64,000 nt of DNA from Mucilaginibacter polytrichastri (GTDB lineage: Bacteria > Bacteroidota > Bacteroidia > Sphingobacteriales > Sphingobacteriaceae), in assembly GCF_001911425.1 (NCBI RefSeq), contig NZ_MPPL01000001.1, positions 3,213,494 to 3,277,493 of the forward strand, written 5' to 3'. The first letter of the stretch is position 1; every line of letters starts with the position of its first letter. The notes beneath the pieces are model-generated. The model made no database searches. It had not been told where the DNA came from and saw nothing but the letters and a program-made list of their open reading frames with translations. This document shows, in pieces, positions 59,765 to 64,000 of this stretch. The translations under genes were made by a program, and so were the position numbers.

Positions 59765-61051
59765 ATGCTTTCTAAAAAAATTGCCTTAGTCTGGTTCAAA
59801 ACAAATCTTCGTTTACAGGATAACGAATGTTTGGCGAAAGCGGTGGCCGAGAATGACTTGATCGTACCGTTTTATTGCATGGATGACGAACTTATTGGAA
59901 CATCTAAGTTCGGGTTTAAAAAGACAGGAGATTTCCGGCTGAAATTCCTGAAAGAAAGTTTGCAGCAACTGGATGAAGAGCTACGTAGCGCAGGCTCTGG
60001 TTTAGTCCTCTTAAATGGAATCTCTGAAAAAGTGATTTTTAAACTCGCCAAAGAACAAGGTGCGCAACGTATTTATGCCGAAAAAGAAGTAGCCCCCGAA
60101 GAGTTGAACACTCAGCAAAAAGTTGCCGGTGAACTGTCGAAATTGAATTGTACTTTTTCAACATTTGAATGCCGGAATCTTTTGCATTCGGTAGATCTCC
60201 CGTTCCCGATTGGGCAATTGCCGGATGTGTTTACGGAATTTAGAAAGCGGATAGAAAAGACGGTTGCCATTAGGCAAGTGCTGCCAAAGCCACCATCAAT
60301 CGCTTCTCCTGAAATTGAAGCTATGAATTTGACCCTGATCACTTCAAATGTAATCGCTGATCCGCGCGCCGCTATAGAATTTGAGGGTGGAGCGAAAGCC
60401 GCACATGAACGCATACAACACTATTTTTATCAAACAAAGGCTTTATCAACCTATAAAGAAACCCGTAACGGGATGGTAGGTGAACAATATTCTTCTAAAT
60501 TTTCTGCATGGTTGGCTTTGGGCTGCATTTCTCCTAGAGAGATCTATGAAGCAATAAGAAATTATGAAGCAATTTATGGCGCAAACGACTCTACTTATTG
60601 GTTGATATTTGAGTTGCTTTGGCGGGATTTTTTCGGATTCTGCATGGAGAAAAATAGCTTGCGTTATTTCTTACCATCAAGTAACCAACAATTAAAATCA
60701 GCCGATAATGAGCAGTTTAAAACCAAATTAAAAAAGTGGATCAATGGCCAAACCGGCGTGCCATTTATAGATGCTAATATGATCGAATTAAAACTAACCG
60801 GTTTCATGAGCAACAGGGGCCGGCAAAACGTTGCCAGCTATTTCTGCAACGATTTACAGTTAGACTGGCGCTACGGCGCGGCTTATTTTGAGCAACAGCT
60901 AATTGACTATGACGTGTGCAATAACTGGGGAAACTGGGCTTATCTTGCCGGCGTAGGTAACGACCCCAGACTTAACCGATATTTTAATATAGCCAAACAA
61001 GCATTAACTTACGACCCTAATAATGCTTTTCAACATCTTTGGCTCTTATAA
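59765..61051 (+). CDS. DASH-type cryptochrome, C-terminally short
   Basis: 428 aa. N-terminal photolyase alpha/beta domain (ALVWFKTNLRLQDNECLAKA) and a FAD-binding helical domain (KFSAWLALGCISPREIYEAI, WLIFELLWRDFFGFCM, GQTGVPFIDANMIELKLTGFMSNRGRQNVASYF, IDYDVCNNWGNWAYLAGVGNDPR). These are typical of cry-DASH proteins, flavin photoreceptors that repair CPDs in single-stranded DNA. The ORF stops at AFQHLWLL, in the middle of the conserved ...LWLPEL region, so about 20-25 C-terminal residues seem to be missing. Confidence 0.9.
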   Translation: MLSKKIALVWFKTNLRLQDNECLAKAVAENDLIVPFYCMDDELIGTSKFGFKKTGDFRLKFLKESLQQLDEELRSAGSGLVLLNGISEKVIFKLAKEQGAQRIYAEKEVAPEELNTQQKVAGELSKLNCTFSTFECRNLLHSVDLPFPIGQLPDVFTEFRKRIEKTVAIRQVLPKPPSIASPEIEAMNLTLITSNVIADPRAAIEFEGGAKAAHERIQHYFYQTKALSTYKETRNGMVGEQYSSKFSAWLALGCISPREIYEAIRNYEAIYGANDSTYWLIFELLWRDFFGFCMEKNSLRYFLPSSNQQLKSADNEQFKTKLKKWINGQTGVPFIDANMIELKLTGFMSNRGRQNVASYFCNDLQLDWRYGAAYFEQQLIDYDVCNNWGNWAYLAGVGNDPRLNRYFNIAKQALTYDPNNAFQHLWLL

Positions 61052-61373: not shown

Positions 61374-61472
61374 ACAGCACAAATTAAACAGCCTCACCTC
61401 CCCTTACTTCTTGATAACCGGTTATTTTTTACCTCCTATTATTTAATGATTTGCGGTTAAAATCTTTAGGTT

Positions 61473-61535
61473 GTCGAAGCAATCCTAGCATTAGTCGAAT
61501 AAAATACCTGTTGCGCAAATACTCGCCTACATTTG
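61473..61535 (+). promoter_or_regulatory. RiPP promoter 1: GTCGA direct repeats and -7 box
   Basis: GTCGAA at 61473-61478 and again at 61494-61499 (21 bp start to start, two helical turns), then AATAAAATACCTGTTG, and TACATTTG at 61528-61535 (perfect TAnnTTTG). The same geometry precedes the second pair and the regulator gene. It looks like an activator-dependent promoter of LytTR type. Confidence 0.75.
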
Positions 61536-61557
61536 ATTCAACGAAAAACAAAAGACC

Positions 61558-61725
61558 ATGAAAGAGAGCAACTTACTTAATGATTTTTTTGAAGGTTCTG
61601 ATTCATCACAGGGCTTTTACCCAATGGACGAGCAATCACTAAACACAGTTTATGGTGGTGGTTTCGACACTGACACAAGCGGCATTTTAAACCTGATGCC
61701 GGCCAAAAATGATCTAATTAGCTAA
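61558..61725 (+). CDS. Cys-free GGG-type RiPP-associated peptide A1
   Basis: 55 aa, absent from the track because of size. Leader-like part MKESNLLNDFFEGSDSSQGF then YPMDEQSLNTVYGGG, and a putative core FDTDTSGILNLMPAKNDLIS. The acidic, Phe-rich leader and the GGG junction resemble double-glycine precursors, but the core has no Cys and therefore cannot form lanthionine. Its paralogue A2 at 62303 shares nearly all of the leader and the GGGFDTD junction. It is the first gene behind promoter 1 and precedes B1 by 46 bp. Role unknown: linear dehydrated product, two-component partner or helper. Confidence 0.75.
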   Translation: MKESNLLNDFFEGSDSSQGFYPMDEQSLNTVYGGGFDTDTSGILNLMPAKNDLIS

Positions 61726-61771
61726 CAGATACAATAAACCAATTTAATTCACATTTTAAAAAACAAACATC

Positions 61772-61939
61772 ATGTCAAAAGAAAACTTTAAACAACCATT
61801 AGACCTTGCCAAAGAAGTAATTGCAAAATTAGATGACGAACAATTAAAAGAAGTTGAAGGCGGTACTGCTGTACCAGTTTCATGCAACGGTGGCATCCTT
61901 TCTTGCTTTACTGCTTCAGAAACTGAAGAAGCTCAATAA
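61772..61939 (+). CDS. Class I lanthipeptide precursor B1
   Basis: 55 aa, too short for the track. Leader MSKENFKQPLDLAKEVIAKL continues DDEQLKEVEGG, matching the Bacteroidota class I lanthipeptide leader pattern (KLDxxQLxxVxGG). The core, TAVPVSCNGGILSCFTASET plus EEAQ, has two Cys and several Ser/Thr, as needed for two thioether rings. A LanB dehydratase gene lies downstream. The product would be dehydrated by LanB, cyclised by a LanC (expected beyond the window) and cut after GG. It is followed by a terminator. Confidence 0.85.
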   Translation: MSKENFKQPLDLAKEVIAKLDDEQLKEVEGGTAVPVSCNGGILSCFTASETEEAQ

Positions 61940-61962
61940 GCAAAACTTCCCGGTACAAAACA

Positions 61963-62004
61963 AAACAGACCGTCTCAGTAAATTTTGAGCGGTCTTTTTG
62001 TTTT
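61963..62004. terminator. Terminator after precursor pair 1
   Basis: AGACCG-TCTCA ... TGAG-CGGTCT with flanking AAAAC and TTTTTGTTTTT. It makes pair 1 an independent transcript. The 200 bp that follow, up to promoter 2, contain nothing else I can identify. Confidence 0.8.
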
Positions 62005-62221
62005 TATATAATTCCTTCAGAACTATAGTATACACAAGTTTAACCAGCATAAATTACCCTTTATGAGAGTTTGGCATCTGCACTGGTAATAGTTTTCCAT
62101 TAAACGCCGAGTATAGCGGCACTGCTAATAACACAAATATTAATAAGGATAGCATAGAGCGACTTAAAGTATACAGACAAAAGAACATGTTAAGGACAGC
62201 TATCCGCCAAACCATTATGTT

Positions 62222-62284
62222 GTCGAACCAAATGGGGCTTTAGTCGAATAAAATACCTGTTGAGCAGCAGCTTATATACCTTTA
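62222..62284 (+). promoter_or_regulatory. RiPP promoter 2: GTCGA direct repeats and -7 box
   Basis: GTCGAA at 62222-62227 and 62243-62248 (21 bp apart), the same AATAAAATACCTGTTG string, then TACCTTTA at 62277-62284 (7 of 8 to consensus), exactly 34 bp after the second repeat start, as in promoter 1. Confidence 0.75.
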
Positions 62285-62302
62285 GTTAAAACAAAAAAGA
62301 CC

Positions 62303-62467
62303 ATGAAAGAAAAAAACATACGCAACGATTTTTTTGAAAGCACTGATGCTTTGCAGGGCTTTTACCCGATGGATGATGAACTACTGGACAAGGTTCACGG
62401 CGGTGGCTTTGATACCGACTTTACAGGCATCTGGGACATATTAACCGATGATGACCTGCTGGATTAA
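62303..62467 (+). CDS. Cys-free GGG-type RiPP-associated peptide A2
   Basis: 54 aa, not in the track. MKEKNIRNDFFESTDALQGF then YPMDDELLDKVHGGG and core FDTDFTGIWDILTDDDLLD. It is paralogous to A1 (shared MKE-N, NDFFE, QGFYPMD, GGGFDTD), and the core is even more acidic and again lacks Cys. It is the first gene behind promoter 2 and precedes B2 by 43 bp. That the leader is conserved while the core varies supports a processed peptide. Confidence 0.75.
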   Translation: MKEKNIRNDFFESTDALQGFYPMDDELLDKVHGGGFDTDFTGIWDILTDDDLLD

Positions 62468-62510
62468 CAGCAGCAACGCAAATTATTCACCTCAAAAAAA
62501 ATATAATATC

Positions 62511-62675
62511 ATGTCAAAAGAAAACTTAACAATCCCCCTGGCGCTGGTTAAAGACATTATTGCCAAGCTTGATGACGAACAGCTGAAAGAAATTGAAGGC
62601 GGTTCTACAGCCCCGGCATCATGCACCGGCGGTATTTTATCGTGCTTTACAGGCGGTATACAGGAAGAAGCTTAA
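62511..62675 (+). CDS. Class I lanthipeptide precursor B2
   Basis: 54 aa from the internal ATG at 62511; the track start at 62448 lies inside A2 and gives an unlikely N-terminus. Leader MSKENLTIPLALVKDIIAKL then DDEQLKEIEGG, core STAPASCTGGILSCFTGGIQ plus EEA. It shares the P-x-S-C-x-G-G-I-L-S-C-F-T ring region with B1, so the two products would carry the same ring scaffold and differ at the ends. Confidence 0.87.
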   Translation: MSKENLTIPLALVKDIIAKLDDEQLKEIEGGSTAPASCTGGILSCFTGGIQEEA

Positions 62676-62802
62676 TACCGCAAAGGCTGCCAAATAACTG
62701 GTAGCTTAATGCTCATCTGCTTTTGGCACTCAGACCTTCAAGGCACATCCGCTTAAAGTTAAATTTACAGTTAAATTTTGGTGTAGCTAAATAGTTAACG
62801 TT

Positions 62803-62865
62803 GTCGAGCCGATTAAGCACTTCGTCGAAAAAAGAAAGCCAAAGGTTAATTATCCGATAGCTTTG
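62803..62865 (+). promoter_or_regulatory. RiPP promoter 3: GTCGA direct repeats and -7 box
   Basis: GTCGA at 62803-62807 and GTCGAA at 62824-62829 (21 bp apart), then TAGCTTTG at 62858-62865, a perfect TAnnTTTG and again exactly 34 bp from the second repeat. It drives the receiver gene and presumably the LanB operon. Confidence 0.72.
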
Positions 62866-62947
62866 ATACTATCAAAAAAGAGTGCCGCAAGGGGCAAATT
62901 ATACGATTTTAAGCGCTCTTTATTTAACAACATGTACTGCAAATATC

Positions 62948-63304
62948 ATGGAACAGCCTATAAAATGTGTAATAATTGACGATGAAAAGCCGGCTATTGA
63001 CCTGCTTGAACATTATATTAATAATGTTGATTCATTGGTTCTGGTATGTAAGTTTAGCCACATAGATAGCCGTGTAAAACTACTTTTGCAGGAAGCACAG
63101 GTAGATGCCATATTTTTAGATCTGAGTGTAAAGGGCTCGAAAGAATTTTTTGCCGAAGCCATGGACCAATATACCTGCATATTAACCACAGCCTATCCCG
63201 CAGCTATGCTTACAGATTTAAAAATTACCCATTTGCTCAATAAACCCATCTTGTTTGAGAAATTTCTGAGAATAGTGAACAAAATATTTGTGGACATTAA
63301 TTAA
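62948..63304 (+). CDS. Receiver-only (LytTR-type REC) regulator
   Basis: The track start (62882) lies just behind the promoter box and gives a poor N-terminus; ATG 62948 begins MEQPIKCVIIDDEKPAIDLL, giving 118 aa. Acidic pair DD, phospho-Asp in AIFLDLSVKGS, Thr in ILTTAYP and Lys in LLNKPILFEKF are all present, so it can be phosphorylated. The sequence type is that of REC domains of LytTR regulators, but the DNA-binding domain is missing and the next ORF starts 8 nt later. It might modulate a full LytTR protein elsewhere. Confidence 0.85.
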   Translation: MEQPIKCVIIDDEKPAIDLLEHYINNVDSLVLVCKFSHIDSRVKLLLQEAQVDAIFLDLSVKGSKEFFAEAMDQYTCILTTAYPAAMLTDLKITHLLNKPILFEKFLRIVNKIFVDIN

Positions 63305-63311
63305 ACCGATT

Positions 63312-64000
63312 ATGAAAAACATAAGCCCTTTCGATTTTTTTATCATGCGCAAACCTCTGCTTCCGTATCAAACCATAAGCAGAATTAATGATATATTAAA
63401 AACTTCGGAAGCCGGTTTTACTATCGCGTTAAAACAATTTTACACTGATCCGCTGATACAGGACGCTATCTACATTTCGTCGCCCGAGCTCTTTGAGCAG
63501 ATGATTCATTGGATTAATGCGGATGACCAGGATTCAAAAAACAGCAAAAAAATAGTAAAGACATTATATCAATATTTGCTCCGTATGTCGGGTCGGTGCA
63601 CCCCATTTGGCCTTTTTGCGGGCTGCAGTATGGGCGGGGTAGCAGGCAAAGGCTATGAGGTTAACTTCGATCAGCAAAATCCCTTATATAAAAGCTCGAG
63701 GCTGGATATGTGGCACGTGGCCGAGCTGGCCAGCTTTTTAACCAACCATCCGCTTATAAAAACACAGCTTAATTACGCGGTTAACAATACACTGTATAAC
63801 CAGGGTACAGAATATTACCGCTACACCGAATATAAATTTGCCAAAGGCAAGCGCCAATACTTTTCTTCAGAAATCAAGCGTTCGGTTTATCTTGACGATG
63901 CCCTGTCGGCAGCTAGGCAGCCTGTATCATTTAATCAATTGGTAGCCTGCATTACGGCCCTTAACATACCAGTTGAACAAGCTCAGGAATTTATTCATTC
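63312..64000 (+). CDS. Lantibiotic dehydratase (LanB-type), 5' part
   Basis: Read by hand because it runs off the right edge; 229 codons are open. The start MKNISPFDFFIMRKPLLPYQ and the motif YLLRMSGRCTPFGLFAGCSM are hallmarks of the N-terminal (glutamylation) domain of LanB dehydratases. Then comes LDMWHVAELASFL. LanB uses glutamyl-tRNA to dehydrate Ser and Thr of the precursor core. It follows the receiver gene by 8 nt in one operon. Whether it is full-length or split from its elimination domain, as in some Bacteroidota clusters, cannot be seen. Confidence 0.9.
   Translation, partial: MKNISPFDFFIMRKPLLPYQTISRINDILKTSEAGFTIALKQFYTDPLIQDAIYISSPELFEQMIHWINADDQDSKNSKKIVKTLYQYLLRMSGRCTPFGLFAGCSMGGVAGKGYEVNFDQQNPLYKSSRLDMWHVAELASFLTNHPLIKTQLNYAVNNTLYNQGTEYYRYTEYKFAKGKRQYFSSEIKRSVYLDDALSAARQPVSFNQLVACITALNIPVEQAQEFIH

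Follow-up and report, generated by a model that had tools for sequence, protein, structure and literature searches.

How could thioether rings be closed in a lanthipeptide cluster whose only LanC-like protein lacks the full set of zinc ligands, and what is the role of the Cys-free peptide encoded ahead of its precursors? Both questions arise at the end of a 64,000-nucleotide stretch of Mucilaginibacter polytrichastri DNA (the window, G000:C1:3213494-3277493), where the genes A1, B1, A2, B2, REC and the beginning of a LanB gene span positions 61558-63998. By extending the contig past position 64000 we followed this cluster for a further ~13 kb, to a total of ~16 kb; genes outside the window are given in the coordinates of locus L003, which starts at window position 61001. 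The locus is very probably the 5' end of a complete class I-type (LanB) cluster for ribosomally synthesized and post-translationally modified peptides (RiPPs). What is new here is a zinc-less LanC as the sole LanC-like protein, together with a peptide family, A, that is tied to this LanC. On balance, we favour reading the cluster as a Bacteroidota class I-type subtype with a zinc-less, probably metal-independent LanC and a co-exported, unmodified A peptide that is perhaps an autoinducer. A preliminary description of the window had located all six genes and taken them for the start of a class I cluster; the extended contig bore this out, as it encodes the C-terminal domain of LanB, a homologue of LanC, an exporter of the C39-ABC type and a LytTR regulator paired with a histidine kinase. 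The precursor reading frames also proved to be conserved in related genomes, and the LanC lacks the zinc ligands.

The LanC homologue (L003:11898-13094; PF05147, 57 bits against a cut-off of 23) lies outside the window and is the most unusual feature of the cluster. In NisC, zinc is bound by Cys284, Cys330 and His331, and Asp141 and His212 provide acid-base chemistry (PMC9889658). These zinc ligands are described as common to LanC proteins of almost all classes (PMC9889658), and as strictly conserved in all cyclases except LanKC of class III, in which other residues take their place and ring closure needs no metal (PMC10604976); much the same statement is made in PMC7268733. When aligned with the solved cyclase 8byk, the M. 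polytrichastri protein presents NLCYGDLG for AWCYGTPG and ILYGTSG for FCHGFSG; the equivalents of NisC C330 and H331 are Leu and Tyr, and that of C284 is retained. All 49 rows of canonical LanC proteins carried C284, C330, H331, H212 and an invariant Asp that we took as D141, although these rows had been selected by possession of the three ligands, so that independent evidence comes from the remaining positions alone. We then aligned the LanC proteins of the 13 clusters that encode an A peptide (A-clusters; 19 rows, 13 distinct). Every row has Tyr at His331 and retains His212. Cys330 is replaced by Lys, Tyr, Leu, Phe or Trp, Cys284 by Val, Leu or Ile in 12 of 13 clusters (only the M. polytrichastri copy keeps Cys), the D141-equivalent Asp by Gly or Glu, and the equivalent of MadC Arg294 by Asn or Asp. 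In a maximum-likelihood tree all zinc-less LanCs formed one clade (100/100), within which those of the A-clusters and of H. pini made up one subclade (100/99) with the M. polytrichastri copy branching first. To judge from these alignments, the zinc site has almost certainly been lost. No report of zinc-less stand-alone LanCs was found in the literature searched, which did not extend to a P. lusitanus structure paper.

When the whole M. polytrichastri genome was searched with PF05147, this was the single LanC-like gene, and no canonical LanC that might act in trans was found elsewhere in the genome; one LanC-like gene each was likewise found in genomes G344 and G345, and the extra matches in G088, G185 and G242 were proteins of ~630 residues without the CHG motif. 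Two points nevertheless tell against a cyclase working alone and without metal. Three P. cryoconitis-type genomes hold a canonical CHG LanC elsewhere, which could act in trans, and the M. polytrichastri LanC keeps one of the three zinc ligands and may bind metal weakly. As class I membership is usually drawn, the cluster has the separate LanC-fold gene, but this protein does not carry the Cys-Cys-His ligand set. Since the ligand set is incomplete and there is no other LanC-like gene, we use the name 'class I-type' and leave ring formation undecided; a class I interpretation needs reserve, and thioether rings should not simply be assumed. The zinc-less LanC type is itself widespread, often beside a canonical partner: 11 other loci pair the two (L040, L071, L073, L074, L075, L080, L110, L114, L123, L128 and L132), whereas A-clusters hold the zinc-less one only.

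The protein is unable to bind zinc as canonical LanCs do, so it would have to act metal-independently. The thioethers of the precursor cores would then be closed with the help of the LanC-fold protein in the manner of class III LanKC. The cyclase domain of ThurKC offers the nearest comparison, with a LanC fold in which the zinc ligands are replaced (PMC10604976). The protein described here differs in being a free-standing LanC within a LanB cluster, without kinase or lyase domain, in its replacements (Leu/Lys-Tyr as opposed to Phe-Asp in ThurKC), and in that we only infer its metal independence. A different reading, which we consider rather unlikely, is that the LanC homologue is no longer a cyclase and serves as a scaffold, with the rings forming non-enzymatically or the B peptides being dehydrated and disulfide-bonded. 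The replacement of the zinc ligands and of the D141 and R280 equivalents, all of them in most A-clusters, fits such a loss of activity, and the occurrence of zinc-less and canonical LanCs side by side in several related clusters suggests a non-catalytic or different role. However, H212, the YGD loop and conservation throughout the fold are retained, the protein is the sole LanC-like protein of a genome whose cluster precursors retain Ser-Cys pairs, and class III cyclases operate without zinc (PMC10604976).

The remaining biosynthetic machinery is of known kinds. LanB (1045 residues, + strand) starts at window position 63312, is open at the window end, and runs to L003:5449 (L003:2312-5449; window position 66449 by extrapolation). 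The fragment inside the window already matched PF04738 at 1.7e-42, and the complete protein scored 457 bits with PF04738 and 227 bits with PF14028, so that the glutamylation and elimination domains are both present, far above cut-off; it can be aligned with the solved structures of NisB and related proteins over the greater part of its sequence. The precursors B1 (61772-61939, + strand, 55 residues, core TAVPVSCNGGILSCFTASETEEAQ), B2 (62511-62675, + strand, 54 residues, core STAPASCTGGILSCFTGGIQEEA; contained in a longer open reading frame that opens at 62448) and B3 (L003:9608-9784) matched the class I lanthipeptide leader family NF038153.1 with 34.1, 28.1 and 33.1 bits, respectively, against a cut-off of 22. 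Their leaders contain a strict LxLxKx5L motif (LDLAKEVIAKL, LALVKDIIAKL and LDLQKDIIAKL), end in GG, and have V/I, L and L at positions -4, -7 and -12. The KLDDEQLKE[VI]EGG leader segment and P-x-SC-x-GGILSCFT core reported earlier for B1 and B2 were both seen as described. The same description had regarded the cluster as apparently undescribed, but a leader with LxLxKx5L and GG in combination with C39 is a described Bacteroidota class I type (PMC7268733), and both the B leaders and the cluster type are already known kinds. By analogy with the family, LanB would bind B1, B2 and B3 via LxLxKx5L and dehydrate their Ser and Thr residues.

The described Bacteroidota clusters of this type agree with ours in leader, GG site, C39-ABC exporter, full-length LanB and the presence of several precursors per cluster (PMC7268733). 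They differ from it in that here there is no canonical LanC, A stands ahead of the precursors, and the core has the form SC-x(n)-SC with an acidic tail. The pinensins of Chitinophaga, to which the cluster had initially been compared, share with it the phylum and LanB-dependent precursors. That comparison is a poor one and was rejected as a close parallel, as the pinensin LanB is split (PMC7268733) and the LanB here is a single protein of 1045 residues. The B cores of the 13 A-clusters carry two Ser-Cys pairs, SC-x(n)-SC, and in most an acidic tail. Pedobacter cores such as NAAELSCWSDSC have no Ser or Thr ahead of their first Cys within the core except its direct neighbour; an ordinary ring from an earlier Ser or Thr could therefore not use this Cys, and we leave the ring topology undecided. 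A class I leader plus Cys and Ser/Thr in the core were found in B1, B2 and B3, and A1 and A2 do not qualify as precursors on these grounds.

A1 (61558-61725, + strand, 55 residues) and A2 (62303-62467, + strand, 54 residues) encode Cys-free, acidic GG-leader peptides, recognised as a family from their reading frames, a family profile and conservation. Their mature parts after GG are GFDTDTSGILNLMPAKNDLIS and GFDTDFTGIWDILTDDDLLD, and neither peptide matched a family above cut-off in the profile libraries. The proteins are 56% identical, and their ungapped codon differences number 22 at third positions as against 9 at first and 8 at second positions. Between close Pedobacter orthologues of A the ratio of nonsynonymous to synonymous substitution rates (dN/dS) is ~0.02-0.06, and for B it is ~0.07-0.11. 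A is under strong purifying selection and clearly coding; the codon evidence and the conservation together rule out a chance open reading frame. Patterns drawn from the A1/A2 alignment were too narrow to confirm any relative in the genome collection, and the wider homologues were obtained from LanB loci with an expanded profile. They were gathered with a profile of A1, A2 and the Pedobacter copies over the LanB loci of Pedobacter and Hymenobacter. Counting each cluster once, A was found in 13 clusters, namely in this genome, in eight genomes that belong to the Pedobacter genus group and in four of Hymenobacter, with a Pedobacter metagenome-assembled genome (L117) as a borderline case beside them. 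The H. pini contig (L082), whose LanC groups with those of the A-clusters, ends near the place where A would be expected. The consensus is F-x-P-F-x-[DE]-x-[DE]-L-x-M-[IV]-x-GGGG-[DE]. The family is confined to this subtype: A was present in none of ~60 other LanB loci examined, and a whole-genome search with the 13-row profile found it in 4 of 299 family genomes, all carrying an A-cluster. Among 151 genomes of the genus and 397 of the phylum, this genome alone had A.

With these results, the idea of an ordinary Bacteroidota GG-type class I cluster with harmless LanC drift and a chance small reading frame in front becomes very improbable. It would account for the B leader, C39 exporter, LanB and regulators, all of which are known for the phylum (PMC7268733). 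Yet the LanC changes are coherent over 13 clusters and fall in one clade, and A is a coding gene conserved in three genera.

What A does is less clear. It stands immediately ahead of the B genes in 13 of 13 clusters. The positions recognised by C39 (-4, -7 and -12) are hydrophobic in 13 of 13 A peptides (V, L and M in A1), and the LanB motif LxLxKx5L occurs in 0 of 13, A1 included; the A leader thus has the part of a B leader that serves export and lacks the part that serves modification. The mature parts contain Cys in 0 of 13 cases and are acidic in 13 of 13, with a net charge of -2 to -10. Because A has the C39 signature and no LanB motif, it would be exported by the same C39-ABC protein as the B peptides, and export in unmodified form seems likely. 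The preliminary description had singled out the Cys-free peptide in front of each lanthipeptide gene, and this peptide is indeed real and a conserved family. The pairing holds for the two A-B units of this genome, but not as a rule: elsewhere there is one copy of A per cluster whatever the number of B genes, which ranges from 1 to 8 per A, and the third precursor here, B3, is led by a different, GG-less peptide. A one-to-one partnership of A with each B is thereby ruled out.

We considered three roles for A. The first is that of an unmodified, secreted second component that works with modified B in the style of two-peptide bacteriocins, which we regard as doubtful. A and B do lie in one operon, have the GG leader type in common and always occur with A directly ahead of B, and in this genome A was duplicated along with B. 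Set against this are the 1-8 different B peptides per A and the conservation of A within Pedobacter, which exceeds that of B. Moreover, most antimicrobial peptides are not acidic, unlike A. In known two-component lantibiotics both peptides are modified (PMC7268733). Such systems (lacticin 3147, birimositide) also have two different precursors per operon, and birimositide shares with our cluster an LLM-type oxidoreductase (LanJC); A differs from their peptides in lacking Cys in the mature part (13 of 13), in lacking the LanB motif and in not being matched one-to-one with B. The second role, somewhat less probable still, is that of an intracellular helper: A would be an acidic peptide of two parts that binds to LanB, to the zinc-less LanC or to the exporter without being a product in its own right. 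The strict association of A with one zinc-less LanC clade, the short HlyD and the TPR-like protein is consistent with it, as are the strong conservation of A and its single copy per cluster outside this genome. A helper that stays in the cell would, however, have no need of the C39 recognition positions kept in 13 of 13 A peptides. Fold prediction of A was uninformative: AlphaFold, run with 11 relatives, returned short helices only at a predicted local distance difference test (pLDDT) score of 56 and was not used.

The third role, an autoinducing signal, depends on how the cluster is regulated. The direct repeat GTTGTCGA-N16-GTCGAA (21-bp period, + strand) was found at 61470-61499, 62219-62248 and 62800-62829, as the putative LytTR operators of A1-B1, A2-B2 and REC-LanB-HlyD, respectively. 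GTCGA-N16-GTCGA occurs six times in L003 against an expectation of 0.17 with one mismatch allowed; the six repeats precede A1, A2, REC, the outer-membrane barrel gene and the Thr-rich peptide/B3 unit, and the last lies between the kinase and LanC. A longer consensus, TKGTCGA-N14-TNGTCGAAW, which was written from the six cluster sites themselves, matched at six places in the 5.84-Mb genome, each of them within this cluster, and its reversed control not at all. The sites bound by LytTR regulators are direct repeats spaced by about two turns of the helix. Given this spacing and the LytTR regulator encoded in the cluster together with a histidine kinase (L003:9854-11747, minus strand), the six repeats are probably operators of that regulator. 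Repeats of 21-bp period also precede C-A units in Pedobacter (P. zeae and Pedobacter sp. L105), C being a short, Thr-rich, mostly GG-less peptide encoded between operator and A in Pedobacter clusters, and a similar repeat ahead of A was read by eye in Hymenobacter sequences (TTGGTCC...GTGGTGTA). The A1-B1 unit, taken from its operator through the last codon of B1, can be aligned at the DNA level with its A2-B2 counterpart, repeat, promoter region and start region included. The best explanation of the two pairs is that a unit of operator, A and B was duplicated in tandem. An operator of its own also precedes the B3 unit.

A is the first gene after the operator (or the second, behind C), is single per cluster elsewhere, is probably exported unmodified and occurs mostly in clusters with a kinase and a LytTR regulator. 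On these grounds A may be the autoinducing signal of the cluster, in our view the likeliest of the three roles but still a tentative proposal that we put somewhat short of even. Exported A would be sensed by the cluster kinase and the LytTR regulator, which would act at the operators. ComC/CSP pheromones, the GG-leader signals of Gram-positive LytTR systems, resemble this arrangement in the short Cys-free GG-leader peptide, C39 exporter, histidine kinase, LytTR regulator and upstream direct repeats. They differ in that the system here is Gram-negative, has a kinase of the His_kinase (PF06580) type, gives no ComC match above cut-off, and does not always include the kinase and regulator in the cluster. 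Several observations weigh against a signal. The kinase/LytTR genes and the repeats are present here and in Pedobacter, but in three of four Hymenobacter A-clusters no kinase/LytTR gene lies within ~10 kb, though operator-like repeats exist, which weakens a signal role. Other LanB clusters with LytTR/histidine kinase carry no A, the mature part of A is highly conserved within Pedobacter, unlike many pheromones, and A1 matched the ComC family PF03047 at 15.8 bits, below the cut-off of 20.4 (E=0.012), with no match for A2. The most far-reaching form of the favoured account has the stand-alone LanC, with its invariant Tyr for NisC His331, closing rings without zinc on SC-x(n)-SC cores that may give nested or reversed rings, and has co-exported, unmodified A switching on expression via the LytTR two-component system; we regard it as rather unlikely in its entirety.

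The other genes complete the map. REC (62948-63304, + strand) encodes a single-domain response-regulator receiver without output domain; its match to PF00072 (E=0.006) is below cut-off, but it retains the phosphorylation residues DD, D, T and K. Its homologues in Pedobacter clusters sit between LanC and LanB. A stand-alone receiver-like protein of 127-147 residues also directly precedes LanB in seven loci of the same family (L042, L043, L045, L047, L050, L055 and L056), which have LytTR/kinase genes on the opposite strand and neither a LanC nor a C39 exporter detected nearby. After LanB come a short HlyD (L003:5442-6131) and an outer-membrane barrel (L003:6671-9067, minus strand), which together with the C39-ABC exporter (L003:14022-16232) would cut the peptides at GG and export the product. 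An LLM oxidoreductase lies beside LanC (L003:13100-14044); this class has been proposed as LanJC, which reduces dehydrated residues (PMC7268733). No other A-cluster has one, but many two-LanC loci do. The TPR-like protein is encoded at L003:16245-17249. On the left, the photolyase/cryptochrome-like gene just ahead of the cluster (window 59765-61051, 428 residues), apparently unrelated by its sequence, is probably the border.

C-type peptides, short and mostly GG-less, were seen ahead of B3 (L003:9405-9578, outside the window) and ahead of A in L037, L039, L139, L119, L068 and L072. Thr and Ser abound in their C-termini (DTLTMTTTMTGFAI, NNSLTITATSTY). The leader motif for LanB is retained in some of them, and they are possibly a third, non-exported LanB substrate. 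A second LanB (999 residues; L169:8556-11789, near 4.676 Mb of G000:C1) follows a peptide without Cys or GG and rich in Thr (MEMKTYNKLAPKVKTLFHFAKTKSGNNVAPSGNTTNTSTTTTVSSIFLNIN), and LytTR-like and kinase genes lie on its flanks. No LanC for it exists in the genome, and it looks like a LanB-only dehydropeptide locus.

The existence of a clade of zinc-less stand-alone LanCs, sometimes the sole LanC-like gene of a genome with a LanB cluster, makes thioether formation without metal directly testable. In published descriptions the ligands are near-universal (PMC9889658) or, class III apart, strictly conserved (PMC10604976). Finding what A does would bring to light peptide signalling in Bacteroidota or else a hitherto undescribed accessory step of RiPP maturation; if A is indeed a signal, this would be peptide-pheromone control in a Gram-negative bacterium.

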